55,057 nt of DNA from positions 1 to 55,057 of the forward strand of contig PKDD01000049.1 of assembly GCA_002862465.1 (NCBI GenBank). Reading direction: 5' to 3'. A model generated the notes under the pieces. That model did not search any database, was not told the origin of the DNA, and was given only the letters and a program-made list of their open reading frames with translations. Below, piece by piece: positions 39,004-54,007 of the stretch. Positions within the stretch are counted from its first letter, which is position 1. Every line of letters begins with the position of its first letter. The position numbers were made by a program, and so were the translations under genes. Source of the stretch: Haliea sp. Lineage in GTDB: Bacteria; Pseudomonadota; Gammaproteobacteria; Pseudomonadales; Halieaceae.

Positions 39004-40239
39004 CTATCGGTTAAAGGCATATTGCACTGGCATCGACTTAAGACCACCGACAAAAATTGCCTGAACCCATTCAGGGTCAGCAGCAAATTCAATATGGCTG
39101 AGCCGCGGCAGCAATTCCTTAAAAAATAACTCTACTTCCAGTATTGCCAGATGCTGGCCAAGACACATATGCCCGCCAAAGCCAAAGGCCAGCTGATTTT
39201 GGTTGTCACGCTCGATATCGAACGTATCGGGGTCTTCGATAGCATCACGATCTCTATTGGCGGATGGGTACCAAAGGCACAAACTGTCTCCAGCCTTAAT
39301 GGTTTTCCCATGCAGTACCGTGTCTTCAGTGGAGGTGCGCATCATGTGGCGTACAGGCGATACCCAGCGAATCATTTCTTTAGCAGCCTGTTTGGCAAGT
39401 TCTGGATGTTTCCGCAATTTTGCAAACTGGTCGGGGTGCTCGAGCAAGGCCTTCATTCCCCCACTAATCGTGGCCGACGTTGTGTCATGCCCTGCCGTCG
39501 CAGTGATAATGAAGTAGCTGATCTGATCGAGTTGCTCCATCGGTTCACCGTCGACCAAAGCGTTTGCCAGTATGGATGCCAGGTCATCGCAAGGATTCTT
39601 TTTACGGTCCTCAACGACCGCAGTAAAGTAGTTGAAAAAATCCATTAGTACCGCAAGACCGTCACCCACCTCGTCCCCTCTCGATTGCGTGGGATCTTGG
39701 CCACCAAATAATTCTTGGGTGAGTTTTAGCATCATAGCCTCCTCTTCAGGAGCGACACCGATGATCGACATTATCACCCGCAGTGGATACAGCAGCGCAA
39801 TATCTTTGACAAAGTCACATTTGCCATTCATGGCTTCCATCTTATCGACGTATTGTTTGGCAATTGTCTCAATGTCCACCCTTAATTTGTCGATCGCCCG
39901 GGGTTTGAACCACTCCCGCGTCACATTGCGTAATTTCTTATGCTTGGGGTTGTCCATGTGAATAAGTGTTTCTACTCCATTGCGTGTTCCGAACTTTTCG
40001 AGTAGCGCTTTTTCGAATTCCTCTTGGAGCAATACCGTTCGAGGGCTGCTAATGAAGGCCGCGTTATTTTGACTGATGGCCTTTATGTCTTCGTACTTAG
40101 TGATAGCCCAGAATGACTCAAACTCCGGGTGCTCCACGCGGCTCACTGGATCATTTTCACGTAAGTGCTGCAGCAATTGATACATAGAGGCCTCATCGCC
40201 CATTACTGTAGGGTCTAGTAAATCCCAGGATGGCTTCAT
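39004..40239 (-). CDS. Cytochrome P450
   Basis: 411 residues. The oxygen-binding helix has AGHDTT (249-254), the ExxR is E288/R291, and the heme loop FGFGGHMCLG carries Cys359. Soluble bacterial class I type; it needs ferredoxin and reductase from elsewhere. It opens MKPSWDLLDPTVM, with HMDNPKHKKLRNVTREWF typical of CYPs acting on terpenoid or steroid-like substrates, but the substrate cannot be fixed. It is a single-gene unit, leftward, well away from the other P450s. Confidence 0.93.
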   Translation of the reverse strand: MKPSWDLLDPTVMGDEASMYQLLQHLRENDPVSRVEHPEFESFWAITKYEDIKAISQNNAAFISSPRTVLLQEEFEKALLEKFGTRNGVETLIHMDNPKHKKLRNVTREWFKPRAIDKLRVDIETIAKQYVDKMEAMNGKCDFVKDIALLYPLRVIMSIIGVAPEEEAMMLKLTQELFGGQDPTQSRGDEVGDGLAVLMDFFNYFTAVVEDRKKNPCDDLASILANALVDGEPMEQLDQISYFIITATAGHDTTSATISGGMKALLEHPDQFAKLRKHPELAKQAAKEMIRWVSPVRHMMRTSTEDTVLHGKTIKAGDSLCLWYPSANRDRDAIEDPDTFDIERDNQNQLAFGFGGHMCLGQHLAILEVELFFKELLPRLSHIEFAADPEWVQAIFVGGLKSMPVQYAFNR

Positions 40240-43386: not shown

Positions 43387-44700
43387 GTGAAAAAATGGTC
43401 CTTTGTTGCGTTGTCTGCACCTCACATAAATAGATTACTGGAGAACACTATTAGTAAAGGCACTGTGCAATCGTCTCCGGCTGACTATCAGTTGCTTGAC
43501 CCTAGCGTGATAGAGGATCCTTATCCCTTTTATCGTGCGCTGGTTGATGAAATGCCGGTCTACAAGGTACCTGAGGCGGAGGTCTACTTAGTGTCGTCTT
43601 GGGAACTGATTCATCAGGTCTTAAAGAATCAGCAGGACTACTCTGCCAATTTGACAGGAATTTTGGTGACGGGCGCCAATGGTCAGCCGGAATTATTCGA
43701 TTTCACCGAGTTTGGCGGCACTGTTAATGCCATTGCCAATGCGGACGAACCTTTTCATGCGGTGCACCGCAAGTTAGTGCTGCCTCAACTTAACGCCCGA
43801 AAGGTCGCCGCAATGGAGGCTGAGGTGCGCGATTGGGCGCGCTGCGGAGTCCAAAAACTGGTCGCTGCAGGACAGGGCGACTGTGTTGGCGAGTTGGCCA
43901 ATGCGATTCCAGTGAAGGTGATGGCGCGCCTGGTGGGTTTACCCGTTGATGATGTCGATCAATTGTTGGCATGGGCGTTCAGTGGCGGCGATATTCTCGC
44001 GGGGACTCCCACTCTGGAGCGGATGCTAGAGTTGAGTATTTCTACTGGGGAGATGAGCGAGTATCTGAAGCAGCATTTTGACGTCAGGCTACAAAATCAG
44101 GCTCCGGAAAGCCCGAGTGACGTGATGGATGAACTGGTGAGGGGTGTTAGCGAGGGACTGATTTCTCAGCAGGACGCAGTCTCCATCATCATTGTTCTGG
44201 TGGGAGCAGCGGGTGAGTCGACCTCGAGTTTAGTGGGGAGTGCGGTTCGGATACTAGCGCAGGATAGTGCGCTACAGCACCGCCTCAGGGAACAGCCGCA
44301 ACTCATAAGCCGTTATGTCGAAGAAGTCGTGCGGTTGGAGTCTCCCTTCCGTGGGCACTATCGAGCGGTTTTGAAGGAGACAAAGCTGAACGGCGTGGTT
44401 ATTCCAACCAGCGCGAGAATTTTTCTGCTTTGGGCCGCGGCGAATCGTGATCCTACAGTGTTCTCTGAGCCAGATAGACTGGACATCGATCGCCACAACA
44501 CTAATGAGCATCTCGGCTTCGGTCACGGTATCCATTTTTGCATTGGCGCGCGATTAGCGCGGCTGGAGGCTAAGGTGATTTTGGAGGAGCTGTTACAACA
44601 AACGAGCAGCTTCAGTTTGGATGATGCGTTTTCTGTGAGACATGTATCCAGCATCTTCGTGCGGCGACTGGATCAATTGAATCTGAAACTGAGCGCTTAG
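43387..44700 (+). CDS. Cytochrome P450
   Basis: 437 residues from GTG at 43387. I-helix AAGESTS (274-280), ExxR E313/R316, heme loop LGFGHGIHFCIG with Cys385. Soluble class I type. There is no good ribosome site at this GTG; an in-frame GTG at codon 27, near TAAAGG, is an alternative start. It lies 43 bases after the SGNH hydrolase and converges with the TetR gene. Substrate unknown, but its position at the edge of the sterol-like cluster suggests a related hydrophobic substrate. Confidence 0.9.
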   Translation: MKKWSFVALSAPHINRLLENTISKGTVQSSPADYQLLDPSVIEDPYPFYRALVDEMPVYKVPEAEVYLVSSWELIHQVLKNQQDYSANLTGILVTGANGQPELFDFTEFGGTVNAIANADEPFHAVHRKLVLPQLNARKVAAMEAEVRDWARCGVQKLVAAGQGDCVGELANAIPVKVMARLVGLPVDDVDQLLAWAFSGGDILAGTPTLERMLELSISTGEMSEYLKQHFDVRLQNQAPESPSDVMDELVRGVSEGLISQQDAVSIIIVLVGAAGESTSSLVGSAVRILAQDSALQHRLREQPQLISRYVEEVVRLESPFRGHYRAVLKETKLNGVVIPTSARIFLLWAAANRDPTVFSEPDRLDIDRHNTNEHLGFGHGIHFCIGARLARLEAKVILEELLQQTSSFSLDDAFSVRHVSSIFVRRLDQLNLKLSA

Positions 44701-44810: not shown

Positions 44811-45407
44811 CTAAGTTTTTCTGAGCAAAAAGGTTATTGCTTCACTGAGAGCATCGCATTCCTGTTTGATCGCATTTTTTGTCTTAATATTGCGCGGATT
44901 GATCTCATCGACCATGCCCCGAAGCGTGGCAAACAAAAGATGACGAGCAATGTCACTCTCCCGCGGTTCCTGAAGATTCCCCTCAAAAAGATCGTCCCAG
45001 AGTTGCGAGGTTTTTTTTGCCCACCGTGACAGCTGTTTCTGCCCATTGATTGCAGAACCATCGTCTTTTCCGGCATTGCGCAGTATGGCTATGCTCACAC
45101 GATATTCTTTTTTTCTAACCAATGCCCATATGACATCTATCAACTGCCTCACTCGTTGTTGAAGATCGTCGCCTTTGAGAGATGTTGATTCCAGAGTCGT
45201 AGAAAAATCGTCAAAAATATAATCAATCACAGCCTGTAGCAGCCCATCTTTATCGCTGAAGTGGTACTGAATTACACCCCAGCTTACCCCTGCTTCCTCT
45301 GCTATGCGATTAGTATGCGCTGCATTGAATCCATCGCGGTAGATACAGTCTATAGCAGATTTTATGACTTTTTCTCGTGTGATGGCTCGCTTGGTCTCTT
45401 TTACCAT
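44811..45407 (-). CDS. TetR-family regulator
   Basis: 198 residues. The N-terminal helix-turn-helix is typical (NRIAEEAGVSWGVIQYHFSDKD), and the C-terminal ligand domain is unassigned. An upstream ATG at 45476 exists, but it would place the promoter and operator inside the gene, so I chose the ATG at 45407. A near-perfect operator lies exactly between its own -35 and -10 (45448-45476), and the same site recurs at 47676, so it likely represses itself and the neighbouring catabolic genes until a hydrophobic ligand binds. Confidence 0.9.
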   Translation of the reverse strand: MVKETKRAITREKVIKSAIDCIYRDGFNAAHTNRIAEEAGVSWGVIQYHFSDKDGLLQAVIDYIFDDFSTTLESTSLKGDDLQQRVRQLIDVIWALVRKKEYRVSIAILRNAGKDDGSAINGQKQLSRWAKKTSQLWDDLFEGNLQEPRESDIARHLLFATLRGMVDEINPRNIKTKNAIKQECDALSEAITFLLRKT

Positions 45408-45447
45408 TTTTAAATCCGAAAGGTTAAGATTTACACTGCCACTGATT

Positions 45448-45476
45448 AGTATAAAATAGTGGCAACTATAAAACAA
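45448..45476 (-). promoter_or_regulatory. tetR promoter with embedded operator
   Basis: On the minus strand, TTGTTT (-35), 17 bases, TATACT (-10), some 40 bases before the TetR start. The spacer holds TATAGTTGCCACTATT, matching 14 of 16 bases of the palindrome at 47676-47691. A repressor there would block polymerase, the standard TetR autoregulation layout. Confidence 0.65.
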
Positions 45477-45535: not shown

Positions 45536-46789
45536 TTGATAAAAAGAAAATTAGCAGAGTTTAGTCGGCTGCAGCTCGCCCAACTGGGTCGTGAATATAT
45601 GCTATTTGCGCAGTTCAATAGTCGGACTGGCTATGCCGCGCTGCGTATCAATCATGGTGACGAGGCCTACAAGGATGTCGCTATAGCGAATTGGATGGGT
45701 GCGAGTCCGGTCTATACGCGACGAATGCAAAGGGCCATGGGCTTTGCTGGTGGCACCGACGTTGCGACGATTTTTAAAGGGTTACAGTTGGAATGTGGTT
45801 TTACGCATCAGTACTTTGATGTGCATTTTGAAGTGCTGGCTGCCGATAGTGGTCGATTCTGGCTCGATAGCTGTGGCGCGTTATTGGAAACTGAGCCGCG
45901 TGGCGCGGATGCGGTCAAGGTGATGTGTCATGATATAGAAGATCCCACTTTTAATGCGACCGCCGTCGCGACCAACGCTCGTGCGCGAATGGTGCCGATT
46001 CATCGGCCACCGCGTGTAAGGACTGATCAAGAACCACACTGTGAATGGACAGTAGATATTGATCCTGATGCTACACCGGTGACGGAGCCAGACATTACGC
46101 GCGCAATGAGTGGCACAAGGCTCGCAAATTTAGCAATCGAACGTCCGGCGAGTGGTGAGACCGGCGGTATGGATGATTATTCGGGGCCCGTGTTTGAGCA
46201 ATTGCAACTGGAGCAGCTCTCTCATGGGGCTCTGGTGGTTGTATGCAGTGAACTGGCTGTGCAAATTCATCTGTTGATTGATGGACTAATACGCTCTGTC
46301 GCCGATCGTTATGGCGAGACTGCGGCCCATGCGGTTGGGGAGTTTCAGATGGAGGGGAGCTGTTGGGTGATGAGCAACCGATTGCGCGAGTGGCTGGGTT
46401 GCACCGGTTCGGGTATAGACGACGTTATCGATGTTCTAGAAATTCATCCGGCCTTCCAGCCGCTGGAATATTGGTCTATCAAAGTCAGCCGACTAAACGA
46501 TCACCAAGCACTTGTTGAATTACTTGACTGCCCAGCTGGAGAGGAGGAAATGCCCTACGGTTGGCATTCTTTGCTGGCCCAACACATGGATGGTGGACTA
46601 CGAGGGCTTGTCAAAGGGGTAGATCCGCATGCACGTGTTATCCGCGTCGACGACTCAAGGTTAGCCTGGAAAATCAGTATTGATGAACTCGATAACATAG
46701 GGGACGAGCCGTTATCTGTGCAGGTAGCCAAGGGTACCGTGCTCTATCAAACACGCCTAAAGGACCATATACCTTTATTGCAACTGTGA
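45536..46789 (+). CDS. Unrecognised 417-residue protein
   Basis: TTG start fixed by AAGGGAG six bases upstream; the nearby ATG at 45531 reads straight into a stop. No signal peptide or membrane span. It is a globular alpha/beta protein with a Cys/His-bearing segment (VMCHDIEDPTFNATA) and HRPPR soon after, which could be a metal or cofactor site, and FDVHFEVL before it. I do not recognise a family; similar text occurs, by memory, in unknown proteins beside P450 genes in actinobacteria. It is divergent from tetR, shares its operator region, and ends 1 base from the convergent LLM gene. A role in the cluster's catabolism is inference. Confidence 0.75.
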   Translation: MIKRKLAEFSRLQLAQLGREYMLFAQFNSRTGYAALRINHGDEAYKDVAIANWMGASPVYTRRMQRAMGFAGGTDVATIFKGLQLECGFTHQYFDVHFEVLAADSGRFWLDSCGALLETEPRGADAVKVMCHDIEDPTFNATAVATNARARMVPIHRPPRVRTDQEPHCEWTVDIDPDATPVTEPDITRAMSGTRLANLAIERPASGETGGMDDYSGPVFEQLQLEQLSHGALVVVCSELAVQIHLLIDGLIRSVADRYGETAAHAVGEFQMEGSCWVMSNRLREWLGCTGSGIDDVIDVLEIHPAFQPLEYWSIKVSRLNDHQALVELLDCPAGEEEMPYGWHSLLAQHMDGGLRGLVKGVDPHARVIRVDDSRLAWKISIDELDNIGDEPLSVQVAKGTVLYQTRLKDHIPLLQL

Positions 46790-46790
46790 T

Positions 46791-47657
46791 CTAAAAAGTG
46801 TTGAGGAAGCGTGTCGCGAACTCCTCAAGTCTCCTTTTTTTATCGTCAATGCTCGATAGAGCGGTACGTCCATCCTCGTTCAGGAAGTTACACCCGTTGA
46901 CCATGGTGACCCCTGCTGCTGCCAGCCTTTCATGGGTGCCGTCGTCAGGATTTTTAACGCCTGTCCAGACATCAAACGGTCTATCAGCACCGCCCTGTTC
47001 TTTGCGAATTGTGCTGAGCGTGTCGAGCAGGGGGTAGACCTCGGCTTCTTCATGCGAGGTTGCCATCCATCCATCAAAACGACAGGCTCTGTGCATCGCG
47101 GCGGGTGCATAGCCTCCAATCATAATCGGTATTGGCTTTCTAGTGCCGGGTGACATTTTGACCGGCGGGATGTCATAGTAGGTGCCCCGATACTCCGTCG
47201 TTTCACCCGACAGTAATTGGGGAATAATTTCCAGCATCTCATCCGCCCGCTTGCCACGCGTATGGAAGTCTTGCCCAGCCATCTCAAACTCTGCTTTTTG
47301 CCATCCCACGCCAGCCCCGAGTGTCACTCTGTCCTGTGACATAAACGCGGCAGTAGACAGGGCTTTTGCCGCACTCAGTGGTTCCCGTAATGGCAGAATA
47401 TAAATGGTGGACAGAAACTGTAAGCGTGTTGTCGCTTGTGCTAAGGCAGCGGTAACCACCCAAGGGTCCGGCCAATGGGTCTGCGGATTCCAGAAAATGT
47501 TGCCGCCATCGCGATAAAGGTATTCATCAACCTGATCTTGCGTGGTGACTAGATGATCGCCATAAGAAACGCCGTGAAACCCAAGTGCTTCGCAAAAGAC
47601 TGCCAGTTCCACCATTTGGTCCATTTCCACAAAGGCAAGAGACTGCCAAAATTTCAT
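46791..47657 (-). CDS. LLM-class (luciferase-like) flavin oxidoreductase
   Basis: 288 residues of the luciferase-like TIM-barrel fold, TIGR03619/F420-type by eye: FHGVSYGDHLV near the start, LGAGVGWQKAEFEMAG in the middle and PIPIMIGGYAPAAMHRA later. These enzymes use FMN or F420 for monooxygenation or hydride transfer. GGAGG precedes the ATG. It is transcribed away from the operator at 47676, divergent from the SnoaL-CYP51 operon, and so shares its control region. Substrate unknown. Confidence 0.87.
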   Translation of the reverse strand: MKFWQSLAFVEMDQMVELAVFCEALGFHGVSYGDHLVTTQDQVDEYLYRDGGNIFWNPQTHWPDPWVVTAALAQATTRLQFLSTIYILPLREPLSAAKALSTAAFMSQDRVTLGAGVGWQKAEFEMAGQDFHTRGKRADEMLEIIPQLLSGETTEYRGTYYDIPPVKMSPGTRKPIPIMIGGYAPAAMHRACRFDGWMATSHEEAEVYPLLDTLSTIRKEQGGADRPFDVWTGVKNPDDGTHERLAAAGVTMVNGCNFLNEDGRTALSSIDDKKRRLEEFATRFLNTF

Positions 47658-47675: not shown

Positions 47676-47691
47676 TATAGTTGCAACTATA
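47676..47691. promoter_or_regulatory. Perfect 16-bp palindrome, probable TetR operator
   Basis: TATAGTTGCAACTATA. It lies between the divergent LLM and SnoaL genes, ~20 bases before the LLM ATG. TTGCAA inside it (47681-47686), followed after 17 bases by TATGGT (47704-47709), could be the -35/-10 of the rightward operon. It matches 14 of 16 bases of the site in the tetR promoter. Confidence 0.7.
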
Positions 47692-47763: not shown

Positions 47764-48270
47764 ATGTCAGGATATAGCCGTGAAGAAATGGAAGAGATGA
47801 TGCGCCGCTGGCTGGCGGTGAATGAAAAGTCAGAAAAGGAGGGTAACTGGCGTCATCTCGCAGACTTTTTTTCTGAAGACTGCCTTTATGGTTGGGACAC
47901 ACCGAATGGCAAGTATGAGTACAGGGGCCGAGAAACCATTCGCGAGACCTGTGTGGGCTTAGCGATGGATCCCTATCAAGGCTGGACTTATCCGTATGAG
48001 CGAATTGTAATTGATGAAACGCGGGGAAGTGCTATGGCGATATGGTGGCAGACTCCGCCAGGTGCACCATTGCGTGAAGATGGCACCGCGATGAAGGTGA
48101 TAGGGGCGTCTTATTTTCAGTACGGTGGTAATTATGAGTGGTGTGAGCAATTAGATTTGTATGATTACACCCAAATTACCAACCTCATTAAAGAATGTGT
48201 TGAGAAGGGTATATTGAAAGAGATGCCTACGATGTCCAGCGATCAAGTTTCAGCGGGGCAAATAGGATGA
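47764..48270 (+). CDS. SnoaL/NTF2-like protein
   Basis: 168 residues of cone-fold type. It starts SGYSREEMEEMMRRWL, then WRHLADFFSEDCLYGWDTPNG and YRGRETIRETC, closing with a Cys/Trp-rich strand and a helical tail. Relatives in steroid and terpenoid catabolism include isomerases and hydratases such as limonene-epoxide hydrolase and ketosteroid isomerase, so isomerisation or hydration of the CYP51 product or substrate is possible. Its stop overlaps the CYP51 start as ATGA, so the two are coupled. First gene of the operon and downstream of the operator. Confidence 0.8.
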   Translation: MSGYSREEMEEMMRRWLAVNEKSEKEGNWRHLADFFSEDCLYGWDTPNGKYEYRGRETIRETCVGLAMDPYQGWTYPYERIVIDETRGSAMAIWWQTPPGAPLREDGTAMKVIGASYFQYGGNYEWCEQLDLYDYTQITNLIKECVEKGILKEMPTMSSDQVSAGQIG

Positions 48271-49610
48271 GCCAGAGTGCAACTGCACCATTGGCACTGC
48301 CATCTAAGGTCAGTGGTGAGAAACCGAGCATCGGCCACATGGAGGAGTTTAGCGCTAACTTTGCGCGTTTTTTAATGCGTTGTAACTCAGAGTGCGGAGA
48401 GCTAGCAGAGTTTAATATGGGTGGGCAACAGACCGTTTTGATGAGTGGCCCCGAGGCTCAAGAAGCGTTTCTTAAAACTCTGGATCAAAAGCTAAGCAGG
48501 GCAGCAGCCTATCAAGCGACTGTGCCTGTGTTTGGCAAGGGAGTGATCTTCGATGCGCCGCCTGACAAGATGAAAGCGCAACTGAAAATTCAGGTGGATG
48601 CGCTGCGGTACCAGAAAATGAAAAACTATTCGACGGTCATCTCCCAGGAGGTCGAGGATTGGGTGGCTGACTGGGGCGATGAAGGTGAATTAGACTTCCT
48701 TGATGAATTCTTGAGGCTGACTCTGCATACGGCAACACATTGTTTATTAGGTAAGGACTTTCGTGACCAGATGACCGAAGAGTTCAGAGAGTTGTATCAC
48801 GACTTAGAAAAGGGCCTGCAGGCAATTGCGTTTGTAGATCCCTATATGCAGCAGCCGATCTTCGAGGCTCGTGATAAGGCTCGTGCGCGACTGCAAGAAT
48901 TGATCGGTGGCATTATTGCAGAGCGACGCGCCAACAGCGGGGTAGTATACGGTGATGCATTGGAAACCTTTATTGCAGGTACTTATGCCGATGGAAGCCA
49001 CCTCACCGATAATGAAATCACTGGGCTTGTAATTGCCACAATGTTCGCTGGCCACCATACTAGCTCAGGCACTGCGACATGGACCTTGACCGAGTTAGCC
49101 CGTCAAAAAGAATACTCTGCAGACGTGCTGCAGGAACTGCGGGCCCTATACAACGAAGACAGTGAGATTACGTTTGAGTCGTTGCGGGAAATCCCTAGGT
49201 TGGAGCGCTTTATCGAGGAAGTGCTTCGTCTGCATCCACCGTTAATATTGTTGATGCGTCGGGTGATAGAGGACATTGATTACAAGGGGACTTTAATCGA
49301 AGCCGGCAAGACCGTTGCCATTTCTACTTATGGTTCGCATCGTAATACAGATTATTTTCCCGATCCAGAGCGTTTTAATCCAAACCGTCCGGAGCCTGAT
49401 ACGCTGTTTGCTTACATTCCTTTTGGCGGTGGTCCACACAAGTGCGCGGGCAATGCATTCGCTATGATGCAGTTGAAAGCAATTTTTGCAGCACTTTTGC
49501 CGCGATACGAGTTTGAGTTAGTTGATCCTGATGAGACTTACCAAGACGATTTTTCTGCGATAGTGCTGAAGCCAAGTGGCCCTTGTCGATTGCGCTATAA
49601 AAAGCGTTAA
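48267..49610 (+). CDS. CYP51-family cytochrome P450 (sterol 14alpha-demethylase-like)
   Basis: 447 residues. Both CYP51 hallmarks are present: the B-prime signature Y82-x5-PVFGKGV-x2-D96 type (YQATVPVFGKGVIFD) and the I-helix AGHHTSS (261-267), in place of the AGxDTT of other P450s. ExxR is E318/R321, heme loop FGGGPHKCAG with Cys393. Soluble, without a membrane anchor, like Methylococcus and mycobacterial CYP51. CYP51 removes the 14alpha-methyl group of sterols. The next gene is a ferredoxin, as in Methylococcus where it is fused to CYP51. Sterol or triterpenoid substrate is inference. ATG overlaps the SnoaL stop (ATGA). Confidence 0.92.
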   Translation: MSQSATAPLALPSKVSGEKPSIGHMEEFSANFARFLMRCNSECGELAEFNMGGQQTVLMSGPEAQEAFLKTLDQKLSRAAAYQATVPVFGKGVIFDAPPDKMKAQLKIQVDALRYQKMKNYSTVISQEVEDWVADWGDEGELDFLDEFLRLTLHTATHCLLGKDFRDQMTEEFRELYHDLEKGLQAIAFVDPYMQQPIFEARDKARARLQELIGGIIAERRANSGVVYGDALETFIAGTYADGSHLTDNEITGLVIATMFAGHHTSSGTATWTLTELARQKEYSADVLQELRALYNEDSEITFESLREIPRLERFIEEVLRLHPPLILLMRRVIEDIDYKGTLIEAGKTVAISTYGSHRNTDYFPDPERFNPNRPEPDTLFAYIPFGGGPHKCAGNAFAMMQLKAIFAALLPRYEFELVDPDETYQDDFSAIVLKPSGPCRLRYKKR

Positions 49611-49624
49611 TAGCGCTGGGGAAT

Positions 49625-49837
49625 ATGGACGTGAAAATAAAAATCGATTTGGCGTTGTGCCAAGGACATAGTGTTTGTCTGGGGGAAGCGCCTGAGGTGT
49701 TCAATGTGATCGATCAAGATGATGGTTATCCTCATGTCAAAGTGCTGCTGGACAGCCCGCCGGAAGCGCTGCGCGCAAAGGTCATGAAGGCGGCTAAATA
49801 CTGTCCCAATAGTGTTATTACCGTGCTTGAAGACTGA
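49625..49837 (+). CDS. Ferredoxin, His-type, P450 partner
   Basis: 70 residues. Cluster ligands C12, C18 and C60 with His15 where a fourth cysteine would be (LCQGHSVCLG and YCPNSV). This His-type arrangement is that of P450-linked [3Fe-4S] or His-ligated [4Fe-4S] ferredoxins, such as the one fused to Methylococcus CYP51. It lies 14 bases after CYP51, so it almost certainly delivers electrons to it, and perhaps to the other P450s, since no other ferredoxin is in the window. No reductase gene is nearby. Confidence 0.93.
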   Translation: MDVKIKIDLALCQGHSVCLGEAPEVFNVIDQDDGYPHVKVLLDSPPEALRAKVMKAAKYCPNSVITVLED

Positions 49838-49848
49838 CTAGAATTGCG

Positions 49849-50868
49849 ATGAAGACGTTAATTACAGGCGGGACCGGCTTCGTAGGGTCACATATTTGTC
49901 GACAGCAGATGGCGGCCGGTCACGCGGTGCGTCTGTTGGTCCGTGATATTGACAAAGCGTCTGCTTATTATCGTTACCTAGGAGAGGATACTCCTGAATT
50001 GGTGGTCGGTGATGTTACCGATAGTGTGTCAGTGAAAATGGCGCTAGAGGAGTGTGACGCGGTTGTGCATGCTGCTGCTGGCACACCGATGCAAACTGAC
50101 TCAATAGAAAAACTGTTCCGAGTCAATGTTGATGGTGTGAAGTATGTCGTAGACAGTGCGTTGGAGCGCGGTATTGATCGCATAGTGTGTATTTCCAGTA
50201 TCACTGCCATCTTTAATTCAGATGGCGCTAAAGTTACCTCCTCGGCACCTCTAGTGCAATCAAGTTTGCCATATGGCCAAAGTAAGGTCGAAGCAGAAAC
50301 GTATCTGCGGTCGTTGCAGGCGCAGGGTTTCCCTATCTCAATTATCTATCCCGGTGGCGTCATTGGCCCGGACGACCCCGGATTTTCAGACTCATTTAAA
50401 GCCCTAAAGCATCGAATGGAGAATGGTTTTCGAATCTTCGGTGATGGCGGTATGCAGTACGTCGATGTGCGTGATCTTGCTGCATTCGTATGTTCTCTGA
50501 TTCAAGGTGGCGGTTCTGGACGCTTCCTGATGCCAGGTGTTTACTGCTCCTGGAGTGAGCTAGCTGATATCATCGAGACTGTATCAGGCTGCCAACTTCA
50601 GCGTATCCCGGCTCAGGGCTGGAAGCTTCGTCTAGTCGGGCGAGTGACGGATTTTTTAAGGCACTTTCGGACGATCGATTCACCTATTTCTGCTGAAACG
50701 ATGCGATATGCGACGCTGTGGCCCAATATTTCTAATACCGACGAACTTCCGCTGCGGGGACTCGCCTTGCGCAGTGCAAGTGACACATTTTCAGATGCCA
50801 TTGCGTGGATGGTTAAGGCGGGGCATTTAGAGGCGAGTCAGTGTCCAAAATTAAGTGTAAGCGATTAA
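49849..50868 (+). CDS. 3beta-HSD/NSDHL-like extended SDR
   Basis: 339 residues. Rossmann motif TGGTGFVGSH and the catalytic S116/Y142/K146 (YGQSK) of extended SDRs. By eye it is nearest to 3beta-hydroxysteroid dehydrogenases and to NSDHL-type sterol C4-decarboxylating dehydrogenases, also to dihydroflavonol-reductase-like proteins. Beside CYP51 and its ferredoxin, NAD(P)-dependent oxidation of a sterol or triterpenoid 3-hydroxyl is the natural guess. It starts 11 bases after the ferredoxin gene. Confidence 0.85.
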   Translation: MKTLITGGTGFVGSHICRQQMAAGHAVRLLVRDIDKASAYYRYLGEDTPELVVGDVTDSVSVKMALEECDAVVHAAAGTPMQTDSIEKLFRVNVDGVKYVVDSALERGIDRIVCISSITAIFNSDGAKVTSSAPLVQSSLPYGQSKVEAETYLRSLQAQGFPISIIYPGGVIGPDDPGFSDSFKALKHRMENGFRIFGDGGMQYVDVRDLAAFVCSLIQGGGSGRFLMPGVYCSWSELADIIETVSGCQLQRIPAQGWKLRLVGRVTDFLRHFRTIDSPISAETMRYATLWPNISNTDELPLRGLALRSASDTFSDAIAWMVKAGHLEASQCPKLSVSD

Positions 50869-50884
50869 CGATATGAGAGTATAA

Positions 50885-51361
50885 ATGCCGGCACAATTAC
50901 AGGGACAGCCATTTTATTTTGATGATCTCGTGGTTGGCGCGGAACATGCAGCGGCAACACATGTCGTTACAGCACAGGCAATAATTGAGTTTGCAAAAAT
51001 CTGGGATCCGCAACCTTGGCATGTCGATGAGGCGTTCGCCGCCACATCCATTTTTGGTGGTCTCACCGCTTGTTCGGCGCATATCTTCTCCATTTTTTGC
51101 ATTACCAGTCAGCGTTGGCAGAGTGGCGTCGTGCAGCAGGTCATAGCGGGTCTGGGTTTTGATGAGATGCGCATGCATAGGCCCGTTTATGCCGGTGATA
51201 CGCTGCGGTCTTTGTCTATTGTAGAGAAGGCAAGACGTTCGAAGAGTAAGCCCGATCGCGGTATCGTAACCTACAATACACAACTTATAAATCAAAACGA
51301 TGAGTTGGTTTTTAGTGTCAAGGCATCGACTCTAATGGCTAGAGATCCGGCGAGGCAATAA
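50885..51361 (+). CDS. MaoC-like (R)-enoyl-hydratase-fold protein
   Basis: 158 residues, hot-dog fold. FYFDDLVVGAEHAA opening; WDPQPWHVDEAFAA supplies the Asp/His dyad region and GGLTACSAHIF the second helix, as in MaoC hydratases. It hydrates or dehydrates enoyl compounds, probably acyl-CoA side chains. Starts 16 bases after the SDR and ends the operon; the TonB receptor follows 147 bases later on its own promoter. Confidence 0.87.
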   Translation: MPAQLQGQPFYFDDLVVGAEHAAATHVVTAQAIIEFAKIWDPQPWHVDEAFAATSIFGGLTACSAHIFSIFCITSQRWQSGVVQQVIAGLGFDEMRMHRPVYAGDTLRSLSIVEKARRSKSKPDRGIVTYNTQLINQNDELVFSVKASTLMARDPARQ

Positions 51362-51508: not shown

Positions 51509-54007
51509 ATGAAGATAAGAAATAAGAATAATCGCCCTCATTATGTCCTAGCCATGCTTATCTCGGTAGCGGTTTTTACGCCAGTTTTGCCGGCCAAAGT
51601 TTGGGGCTTACAGGTGCTGGAAGAAGTTATTGTCACTGCCCGAAAGCGTGCCGAAAGCCTGCAGGAAACGCCAGTTGCAGTGTCCTTTCTCAGTGGCGCA
51701 GATCTTGCTCAGTCTGGTATGCGTGACGTTCTGAAACTGGCAGAAGTGGTTCCTAACCTTACCTTTACTACAGGGGGTTCCGGAGGCAGCGCGGCGCCCA
51801 ATATTCGCGGTGTAGGAGCCCGTAATAATGGGGCAAATTTTGATAGTGGCGTTGCTCTTTACCTTGACGGTGTCTATGCATCCCGTGCGGATGGGGCCAT
51901 TATCGATAGTGTCGATATCCGCAGCGTGCAGGTCGTGAGGGGGCCTCAGGGCACGCTATTTGGAAAAAACGCTACGGGTGGCGCCATTATTTACGCGACG
52001 AACAAACCCACGGAACTTTTTGAAGGTAATGTCGAGGTGGATATTGGTAATTATGATCGCCAGAACGGACAAATAACGGTCAACGTTCCACTAATTGAAA
52101 ATACGCTATACTCGAGAGCGTCCCTATATCGTACGGCACGTGATGGTTATCTTGATGACGTCGAAACTGGGGAGAATCTTGGCAATATAGACCGTTGGGG
52201 CGGCCAAATGCAGCTAAGGTTTATTGCGGGAGATAGCCTGTTAGTCGACGTTAATGGCGTCTACGGCAAAGTAGATCAAACTACCAAGGGTTTCCAATGT
52301 CAGCCTGCGCTGGGTGTTCCTGGATCGGGTTGGTTAAGTGGTCTTCAGAATGACGCGATATTAATTCCATCGACTGGAAAATCGTTTCTGCAGCATTGTC
52401 AGGACTCCTATGTGCTAGACAAAGATCAGGCTTTAACTCCGTGGTCTGATGATCTCCCGCCAAAATATGAAGCAACCACGAAGACGATTGCCGCTACCGT
52501 AGACTGGGAAATTAACGATATTTTCAGCCTTAAAAGTATCACCGCATGGCGCAATACAAATGCGGGAGAAGCCAATGATATTTTTGGCATTGGGATTCCA
52601 TTCCAAACGCGGACTAATTTTGGGCGCTCTATTACGGCCAATAGGAATACGGACTGGTACAGCGAGGAACTGCAGTTAAGCGGATCTGCGTTTGAGCAAA
52701 AGGTTGATTACATTGTCGGGCTGTTTGCCTCGAGGGAAAAGACCGATCAGGGTAATGCAGCAGGGGTAGCTGGTCCGTTTTTTGGTGCACTAGGACAGCC
52801 ACTACTTGCATCTTATTTGGCTCAGGGTACCGAATTACGCACTGACAATAAGTCTTATGCGGTATTCAGCCAAGCTGACTGGAACCTAACGGACACATGG
52901 CGACTTAGCCTAGGCCTTCGGTACACGTGGGAGGAACGGTTGCTGCGCAGAGCCACCTATGACCCCGACGTCTCTTCCCTTTCCTCAGGAGCGGCAGCGA
53001 GCAGCGCATTCGATCCCTTTTATAACTTTCCAGACGGTCCTGAAAGCTTCAATGCCGATCACGGATATGTTCTCGGTGATGCTCAGGATAAAAAAATCGA
53101 TAATGATGACTGGAACCCGATGGGTAGTATCCAATATCTATTTGAGCGCGGTGATATGCTAGATAATGGAACTGCGTATTTCACGATATCCACTGGGTTT
53201 CTTTCAGGCGGTCTTTCCGAGAGTCTCGATTTTGAGACTGGCGGGATTCCTGAATACAAGCCCGAGGAAGCAACCAACTATGAGATTGGACTCAAAGCCG
53301 ATATTTTCGATAGAACGCTGCGAATTAACACTGCGTTATTTCACACTCAATATGACAACCGTCAATTGACCGGTATCGGTGTTAACCCCGAAACTGGAAC
53401 GATTTCATCGGTCACGACCAATGCAGCGGAATCTAGTATTTCTGGTTTAGAAATCGAGGCGCTATGGTTGCCGATGACAAATCTTGATATCACTCTTAAT
53501 GTAGCGCTTAATCATGGCGACATAGAAAAGTTTGAGGATACTACGGTAGCCGTTCCCGGACAGCTGCCGGCGGCAGACTGCACGCTTGCGACGATAGGCC
53601 CCGGTACAACGGTGGATGGTTGTAATGTTGATCGCAGTGATGAAGATCTTCCTCGGCTGCCCAAACAAACTTATTATGTGGCGGTGCAATATTTTTGGGA
53701 AACGAACGTTGGTTCGTTTACTCCCCGCTTAGACGCCACCTATAAAAAAGACCTTAACAACTGTTTTGACTGGGCCAGTTGCCAGTGGGAAAACGGTAAA
53801 GGTATGGAGTATGACTTTTATGCTTTGAACGCACGGCTCACTTGGCGTTCTAAAAGTGAAGCAATTCGCGTAACTGCCTATGGTAATAACCTTACGGATA
53901 ATCAGTCCGCGGAAGGCGGGAATCCTCTCATTGGTTCGACGGAATCACGAGCCGTGGATTGGAGTGCACCTAGAAGCTATGGCGTCGAGCTTGCATACAC
54001 TTGGTAA
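51509..54007 (+). CDS. TonB-dependent outer-membrane receptor
   Basis: 832 residues. Signal peptide (about residues 12-33), TonB-box-like EEVIVTARKRAES, plug domain with QETPVAVSFLSGADL and RGPQGTLFGKNATGGAI, then a 22-strand barrel ending in the outer-membrane signature YGVELAYTW. It imports a bulky ligand across the outer membrane. Its place after a sterol-type operon, and the absence of a Fur box here, suggest an organic substrate rather than iron-siderophore. GAGGATAAC lies before the ATG. Confidence 0.95.
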   Translation: MKIRNKNNRPHYVLAMLISVAVFTPVLPAKVWGLQVLEEVIVTARKRAESLQETPVAVSFLSGADLAQSGMRDVLKLAEVVPNLTFTTGGSGGSAAPNIRGVGARNNGANFDSGVALYLDGVYASRADGAIIDSVDIRSVQVVRGPQGTLFGKNATGGAIIYATNKPTELFEGNVEVDIGNYDRQNGQITVNVPLIENTLYSRASLYRTARDGYLDDVETGENLGNIDRWGGQMQLRFIAGDSLLVDVNGVYGKVDQTTKGFQCQPALGVPGSGWLSGLQNDAILIPSTGKSFLQHCQDSYVLDKDQALTPWSDDLPPKYEATTKTIAATVDWEINDIFSLKSITAWRNTNAGEANDIFGIGIPFQTRTNFGRSITANRNTDWYSEELQLSGSAFEQKVDYIVGLFASREKTDQGNAAGVAGPFFGALGQPLLASYLAQGTELRTDNKSYAVFSQADWNLTDTWRLSLGLRYTWEERLLRRATYDPDVSSLSSGAAASSAFDPFYNFPDGPESFNADHGYVLGDAQDKKIDNDDWNPMGSIQYLFERGDMLDNGTAYFTISTGFLSGGLSESLDFETGGIPEYKPEEATNYEIGLKADIFDRTLRINTALFHTQYDNRQLTGIGVNPETGTISSVTTNAAESSISGLEIEALWLPMTNLDITLNVALNHGDIEKFEDTTVAVPGQLPAADCTLATIGPGTTVDGCNVDRSDEDLPRLPKQTYYVAVQYFWETNVGSFTPRLDATYKKDLNNCFDWASCQWENGKGMEYDFYALNARLTWRSKSEAIRVTAYGNNLTDNQSAEGGNPLIGSTESRAVDWSAPRSYGVELAYTW

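Follow-up and report, generated by a model that had tools for sequence, protein, structure and literature searches.

A conserved CYP51, ferredoxin and 8,14-reductase operon in the Halieaceae, a probable module for catabolism of imported 14-methylsterols

Introduction

Sterol 14alpha-demethylase (CYP51), a cytochrome P450, is commonly regarded as a hallmark of sterol synthesis. The locus described here is a CYP51 operon in a 55,057-nucleotide stretch of DNA from Haliea sp. (the window), and the closest described system is the CYP51-ferredoxin and 8,14-Bsr pair of the methanotroph Methylococcus capsulatus (PMC13277303). The bacterial 8,14-sterol reductase (8,14-Bsr), a member of the NTF2 family, uses the product of CYP51 to form an 8(14)-sterol (PMC13277303). 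In Escherichia coli, lanosterol is a substrate of the CYP51-ferredoxin of Methylococcus, whose product is in turn a substrate of Bsr (PMC13277303). Genes for 8,14-Bsr often adjoin those for CYP51 and ferredoxin in methanotrophs, Mycobacteriales, alpha- and gammaproteobacteria, and myxobacteria (PMC13277303). Mycobacterium tuberculosis, which degrades sterols and makes none, has an active 8,14-Bsr homologue (PMC13277303), and its CYP51B1 (Rv0764c) adjoins an unfused ferredoxin, Fdx (Rv0763c), that has a CxxHxxC(X)nCP motif and supports CYP51 (PMC9868604). A Mycobacterium is cited in PMC13277303 as forming an 8(14)-unsaturated C19 steroid from lanosterol, and the same article gives the role of CYP51 in non-producers such as mycobacteria as an open question. 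Degradation of steroids by the 9,10-seco route has been described in the Halieaceae and Cellvibrionales, and a Halieaceae isolate from a sponge, BC51, grows on cholesterol (PMC5790920).

The window is one entire contig (PKDD01000049.1; C11 of genome G000) of a 3.3-Mb genome in 182 contigs that is 97.8% complete and whose nearest named relatives are Halioglobus and Haliea metagenome-assembled genomes (MAGs) of the Halieaceae. Its operon resembles the M. capsulatus system in its CYP51 (47.8% identical), its CxxHxxC-type ferredoxin, and the pocket of its Bsr homologue. It differs in that the ferredoxin has its own gene, no cyclase was found, the residue gating the CYP51 pocket is Ala rather than Ile, and genes for a short-chain dehydrogenase/reductase (SDR), a MaoC-like protein, a luciferase-like monooxygenase (LLM)-class oxidoreductase and a TetR-family regulator accompany CYP51. 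The arrangement in M. tuberculosis is similar in having an unfused ferredoxin next to CYP51, but the two CYP51s are 44.7% identical and the gating residue there is Phe. As in the described Halieaceae degraders, homologues of KshA, KstD, HsaA and HsaC are present in the genome and the genus. We believe that the operon serves a sterol-degrading Halieaceae bacterium as a catabolic module, under local regulation, for the 14-demethylation of imported 14-methylsterols, and we give this reading a probability of roughly 0.75.

What is new relative to the known CYP51-ferredoxin-Bsr sets is the unfused ferredoxin, the SDR, MaoC, LLM and TetR genes and the operator candidates, in probable sterol degraders. 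This type of operon may already be in the tree of PMC13277303, because gammaproteobacteria are listed there among the holders of Bsr and CYP51. Two CYP51B members appear in a survey of P450s from gammaproteobacteria (PMC7998510). A full-text literature search, with subscription literature mostly outside its reach, found no article combining CYP51 with Halieaceae and none combining Halioglobus with 'steroid degradation'.

Results and discussion

The five genes of the operon recur together in related genomes. All five are open reading frames on the + strand, from 47764 to 51361, and encode an NTF2-fold protein (47764-48270, 168 residues), CYP51 (48267-49610, 447 residues), a ferredoxin (49625-49837, 70 residues), an extended SDR (49849-50868, 339 residues), and a MaoC-like hotdog hydratase (50885-51361, 158 residues; PF01575, 44.1 bits). 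The first two overlap by ATGA and the others are separated by 14, 11, and 16 bases, so that the array set out in the initial annotation is real and correctly spaced. We compared the 19 best-scoring relatives' loci of the 32 CYP51 matches in other genomes. CYP51 was accompanied by the NTF2 gene in 17/19 of these, by the ferredoxin gene in 19/19, and by the SDR gene in 17/19; the misses were at two contig ends (L024 and L016) and at a paralogue (L027). The MaoC gene was present in 9/19 loci, which extend only about 1.5 kb past CYP51. Based on this recurrence, we conclude that the five-gene arrangement is not a chance association.

The P450 of the operon is a CYP51-family enzyme, as judged by motifs, matches, identity and tree placement. 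Both CYP51 signatures that had been reported for it are present (YQATVPVFGKGVIFD from residue 82, and AGHHTSS), as is the heme-Cys region FGGGPHKCAG. In a phmmer search of the PDB, the top two matches were the CYP51s of M. capsulatus (437 bits) and M. tuberculosis (383 bits). Next came entries named sterol or lanosterol 14-alpha demethylase (172-275 bits), with 9wat, named only 'Cytochrome P450', amid them at 189 bits, and further P450s at about 115 bits among the matches listed. Membership in CYP51 is taken to need >40% identity to a characterised member, and the window enzyme is above this value for both Methylococcus (47.8%) and M. tuberculosis (44.7%); it is 52.4% identical to the CYP51 of genome G304, which is described below. 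In a tree of 44 bacterial sequences, 42 CYP51-type rows were split 100/100 from two P450s of the same genome, chosen as an outgroup from its 17 further P450 matches, and the window enzyme fell inside its genus. The tree gave no sign that the P450 lies outside CYP51, the outcome that the initial annotation had named as refuting its claim; it is a weak test, limited to bacterial CYP51s and, as the non-CYP51 P450s, two long-branched outgroup rows.

CYP51 is the rule within the genus. Counting a match at E <=1e-60 as a carrier in a panel of 57 relatives (own genome included), we found CYP51 in 25/57 genomes and in 17/18 of those within the genus. The one negative genus member is G010, an assembly that is 74% complete and in which the Bsr gene is truncated at a contig edge. 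Two or three copies are present in some genomes. The earlier remark that bacterial CYP51s are rare thus does not hold inside this genus. There is also a second CYP51-like group in which YG replaces FD in the signature (L027, L073, L075-L079, L044:4453-5748, and L144), and the loci L076-L078 of this group also hold KstD-like, SDR and LLM genes. One genome (G052) has both a fused CYP51-ferredoxin with Bsr (L074, G052:C2) and the unfused operon (L026, G052:C11).

The substrate pocket of the window CYP51 is predicted to be roomier on its C-4 side. The B'-helix gating residue, which lies within the first signature and faces sterol C-4 (PMC11089504), is Ala84 in the window enzyme, Ile in Methylococcus, and Phe in M. 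tuberculosis. Across 29 rows from unfused operons it is Ala in 24, Val in 2, and Gly in 3; in rows for second-copy CYP51s it is Met, Phe or Tyr. A roomier C-4 side would make 4,4-dimethyl or otherwise altered substrates possible.

The first gene of the operon encodes a homologue of bacterial 8,14-Bsr. This gene had been labelled SnoaL, a label that we replace on the basis of pocket residues; the Pfam SnoaL_2 score was 18.8 bits, below the cut-off, and we rejected a generic SnoaL cyclase. A PDB sequence search with the protein gave no match at E up to 10. Its structural model (predicted local distance difference test, pLDDT, 91.2) has an NTF2 fold, with a best Foldseek E of 3e-7 and ketosteroid isomerases among the matches listed. 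The published pocket residues are Y37, Y43, Y78, Y80, D133, and D136, of which Y43 and D133 are important and Y37 can be changed to Phe with activity retained (PMC13277303). When aligned to the homologues in genomes G304 and G192, the window protein has F36, Y42, Y76, Y78, D131, and D134 at these positions. Five of the six match, and F36, which takes the place of Tyr37, is the tolerated Tyr-to-Phe change; the five are invariant across 26 homologues. The G304 protein, to which the window protein is 40% identical (130 bits), has all six residues at the published numbers, and that of G192 aligns with it. In G304, the gene for the Bsr homologue is part of a methanotroph-type cluster that also encodes a CYP51-ferredoxin fusion, squalene epoxidase (PF08491, 269.6 bits) and squalene/oxidosqualene cyclase (TIGR01787, 685 bits). 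Identifying the window gene as an 8,14-Bsr homologue gives a name to the reaction that would follow CYP51.

In the 57 relatives, strong Bsr matches are found almost exclusively beside CYP51. There were 43 Bsr-like places in these genomes, 22 above a score of 110 bits, a cut that we chose ourselves, and 21 weaker (48-73 bits). Among the strong matches, 21/22 had a CYP51 at a distance of 1.2 kb or less and the other was cut by a contig end, versus 1/21 (in G021) of the weak matches near a CYP51. In a sample of the gammaproteobacterial class, from which G304 and G192 also come, 4/369 genomes had a match at E <=1e-4, counting our own and a weak match in G217. A search of named genomes gave 35 loci; 30 were gammaproteobacterial, five came from Acidimicrobiia or Terriglobia, and none from Methylococcus or Mycobacterium. 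The Acidimicrobiia and Terriglobia MAGs (L058-L062) have Bsr homologues that are 35-39% identical, with no CYP51 match >=300 bits in the stretches examined.

The ferredoxin is the probable electron donor for CYP51. It has the His-type motif that had been noted for it, CxxHxxC...CP, as CQGHSVC...CP. Its best PDB match is 8amp, the M. tuberculosis Fdx (Rv0763c; PMC9868604); the Methylococcus fusion, through its ferredoxin domain, is the other leading match. With this motif in a gene next to CYP51, it can be placed with the CYP51-partner ferredoxins, predicted to be of the 3Fe-4S type.

The SDR is a plausible sterol 3-dehydrogenase, judging from family-level similarity to 3beta-HSD, NSDHL and HpnA proteins. 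The initial annotation had assigned it to the 3beta-HSD/NSDHL type; the family-level part of this claim stands and the specific part is weak. The SDR scored 144 bits with the HpnA model (cut-off 367), 102 with Pfam Epimerase, and 75.7 with 3Beta_HSD. Its best PDB match was 3wj7, and the NSDHL-type entry 6jkg was lower, at 54 bits, so that NSDHL is unsupported past the family level. The SDR shares its broad group, the extended SDRs, with SdmB of SdmAB, the methanotroph system for sterol C-4 demethylation, but it scored 94 bits against a cut-off of 600 (NCBIfam NF052578) and the operon has no SdmA-type gene. We rejected SdmB as its identity.

The genomic setting points to catabolism of imported sterols rather than biosynthesis. 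The initial annotation had seen no sterol-synthesis genes in the window and had suggested catabolism or modification of imported sterols, and whole-genome searches favor catabolism. The squalene/oxidosqualene cyclase domain SQHop_cyclase_C (PF13243) was found in 0/18 genomes of the genus, and PF13249 had no match in our genome. Partial and weak PF13243 matches over the cut-off (20-31 bits) occurred in 4/57 relatives, all outside the genus (G022, G023, G042, and G056). We rejected sterol biosynthesis because no cyclase domain was found across the genus. Homologues of KshA, KstD, HsaA and HsaC, the set for 9,10-seco steroid degradation, are all in the genome. Of four KshA_C matches, one (best PDB match a 3-ketosteroid 9alpha-hydroxylase, 201 bits) adjoins a gene for KstD, matching 3-oxosteroid 1-dehydrogenase at 435 bits. 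An HsaC-like dioxygenase gene (best PDB match 2zi8, 169 bits) is near two ChsH2-type OB-fold genes and two thiolase-type genes, and an HsaA-like gene is at G000:C132.

Steroid-degradation genes go together with CYP51 across the relatives. KshA_C was present in 38/57 relatives, in 25/25 with CYP51 and 13/32 without (p 5.7e-7), and in a count by genus in 9/9 versus 12/31 (p 0.0014), among relatives that are not independent of each other. HsaC-like matches (TIGR03213, E <=1e-20, all below the cut-off) were in 24/25 CYP51 carriers and 13/32 others. HsaA-like matches (NF045629, E <=1e-50, all below the cut-off) were in 35/57, and the only CYP51 carriers lacking one were G017 and G052. G008 has genes of the HsaA and KshA types some 6-9 kb upstream of its CYP51. 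The operon is also present, with a CYP51 that is 88% identical, in 'Halioglobus japonicus isolate BC5_1' of the same genus; from its name we take this isolate to be the cholesterol-growing strain BC51 of PMC5790920.

The conserved unit is larger than the five genes first described. Upstream are a gene for an LLM-class oxidoreductase of the F420-associated TIGR03619 family (46791-47657, - strand, divergent from the operon; 168.5 bits, cut-off 166.9), a gene for a conserved protein of 417 residues (45536-46789, + strand), and a gene for a TetR-family regulator (44811-45476, - strand, likely ATG start near 45407; PF00440, 41.5 bits). We count these three in the unit because of their conservation and a shared palindrome. 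In 27 distinct neighbourhoods, including paralogue, methanotroph-type and Acidimicrobiia loci, the LLM gene was present in 13, the 417-residue gene in 8, and the TetR gene in 8. The 417-residue protein had no Pfam or NCBIfam match. Its model (pLDDT 85.4; best Foldseek E 0.075) weakly suggests a duplicated fold like TRAPP/Bet3 or H-NOX, and the protein may bind lipids or ligands.

Dedicated control of the operon is suggested by a TetR gene, whose product is a probable local repressor, and by a palindrome limited to the locus in both genomes examined for it. A perfect copy of the palindrome ATAGTTGCAACTAT, the probable TetR operator, is at 47677-47690, between the LLM and Bsr genes. A second candidate operator with one mismatch is upstream of the TetR gene (45456-45469), and there is a corresponding site in the related genome G004. 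The 12-base core, with <=1 mismatch, was found in 13/19 relatives' loci, and not in L015, L016, L025, L026, the paralogue L027, or L024, a locus truncated at the end of its contig. Searching all of G000 and G004, we found two sites per genome with <=1 mismatch, both at the CYP51 locus. Within the window, allowing two mismatches gave 3 sites versus a mean of 1.8, which is not unusual, and the case for the palindrome therefore rests on conservation and the genome-wide search. Sites with two mismatches were no more frequent than those of a reversed-pattern control (11 vs 17 in G000 and 6 vs 13 in G004), and we rejected a wider steroid regulon. The core (<=1 mismatch) was also absent from 9/10 stretches with steroid-type genes or a stray NTF2 match. 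The tenth, from G016, had one core site (L144:62) at a distance of about 0.4 kb from a KshA match. Overall, the unit is probably self-regulated.

F420 use by these marine Gammaproteobacteria is plausible. CofH (TIGR03551) was matched over the cut-off in our genome (506 bits, G000:C2:2770-5046) and in 39/57 relatives; matches below the cut-off were common, control genomes included. The CofH frame in our genome has 854 residues and, from further weak matches, probably encodes a CofG-CofH fusion of F420 biosynthesis. That the LLM protein of the unit uses F420 is speculation.

We propose the following route. The gene set, the families, the conserved residues, the degradation-type genes, the operator candidates and the finding of no cyclase are seen in the sequence; we infer the reactions and their order, the substrate and the regulation. 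Imported 14alpha-methylsterols of the lanosterol or cycloartenol type, possibly partly degraded, would be the substrate. CYP51, supplied with electrons by the neighbouring CxxHxxC ferredoxin, would demethylate these to the Delta8,14-diene, which the NTF2-fold 8,14-Bsr homologue would reduce and isomerise to the Delta8(14) sterol. The SDR would probably oxidise C-3 and might help at C-4. The product would then join the 9,10-seco pathway (KstD, KshA, HsaA, and HsaC) encoded elsewhere in the genome. In the presence of substrate, repression by the TetR protein would be lifted from the operon, the LLM gene and the TetR gene itself.

Several observations weigh against this proposal. The substrate may differ from lanosterol because the gating residue is Ala84 and not Ile or Phe. 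Several paralogous or second-copy CYP51s are without a Bsr neighbour, and G192 has a Bsr with no CYP51 within its 20-kb stretch. KshA_C also occurs in the non-independent relatives that lack CYP51, and the KstD-, HsaA-, and HsaC-like matches are below the curated NCBIfam equivalog cut-offs. The steroid genes of our genome are on other contigs, in stretches without the palindrome, and co-regulation with the operon is for that reason unsupported. G022, with a partial cyclase match, is a CYP51 carrier outside the genus. The SDR and MaoC proteins are weakly tied to sterols, and the activities assigned to the window proteins are predictions from sequence.

Other explanations differ in how far they depart from a catabolic module. 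The nearest, which overlaps with it and differs in substrate only, is that the enzymes act on another 14-methyl triterpenoid or a partly degraded steroid, such as a lanostane aglycone or a 3-keto intermediate with a shortened side chain, and not on free lanosterol-type sterols. The gating residues of the unfused operons (Ala, Val or Gly), at a position facing C-4 (PMC11089504), argue for this, and the use of lanosterol and its product by the Methylococcus enzymes in E. coli (PMC13277303) argues against it; we consider it possible, if unlikely. It is decidedly less probable that imported sterols are remodelled for the cell's own membrane or for signalling. Such a role would fit an operon that is near-universal in the genus and has its own regulator, and modification of exogenous sterols is allowed for in PMC13277303, but the association with KshA-, HsaA- and HsaC-type genes and the growth of a Halieaceae isolate on cholesterol (PMC5790920) speak for catabolism.

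The mix of tailoring enzymes nearby (LLM, SDR, MaoC, and further P450s) could also be taken to indicate non-sterol secondary metabolism or detoxification. The signatures of the P450, the pocket of the Bsr homologue and the accompanying ferredoxin all belong to sterol demethylation, however, and this explanation seems very improbable to us. De novo sterol biosynthesis, in which the same enzyme pair does occur in the methanotroph-type cluster of G304, is largely refuted by the lack of a cyclase domain in our genome and in 17 congeners, and we give it almost no weight. A more elaborate form of the catabolic module is doubtful: a TetR-gated funnel for 14-methylsterols in which the LLM protein, with F420, supplies or completes the reduction beside Bsr and the C-4 pocket of CYP51 has been opened for non-lanosterol substrates. 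If true, CYP51 would have been recruited as a catabolic enzyme alongside F420 chemistry in marine Gammaproteobacteria.

If the catabolic module is as we propose, it would name a route for marine recycling of 14-methylsterols. With a cultured member that grows on cholesterol, the CYP51-ferredoxin-Bsr set and no cyclase found in the genus, the Halieaceae would be a testbed for a role of CYP51 in sterol catabolism. That the set is kept in nearly every species, probably with its own regulator, adds to this value.

Other genes in the window might also be connected with sterols. A TonB-dependent receptor gene downstream of the operon (51509-54007, + strand) is a looser member of the unit and could function in substrate uptake. 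A homologue that is 88.7% identical is downstream in L028, other TonB-dependent receptors (27-29%) are in the same place in L029, L037, and L072, and one is antisense in L030. The window also encodes two further P450s. That at 39004-40239 has 3tkt and P450terp as its best solved matches, followed by a 'CYP125MRCA' entry, and could be a sterol side-chain hydroxylase. The best solved match of that at 43387-44700 is CYP144.

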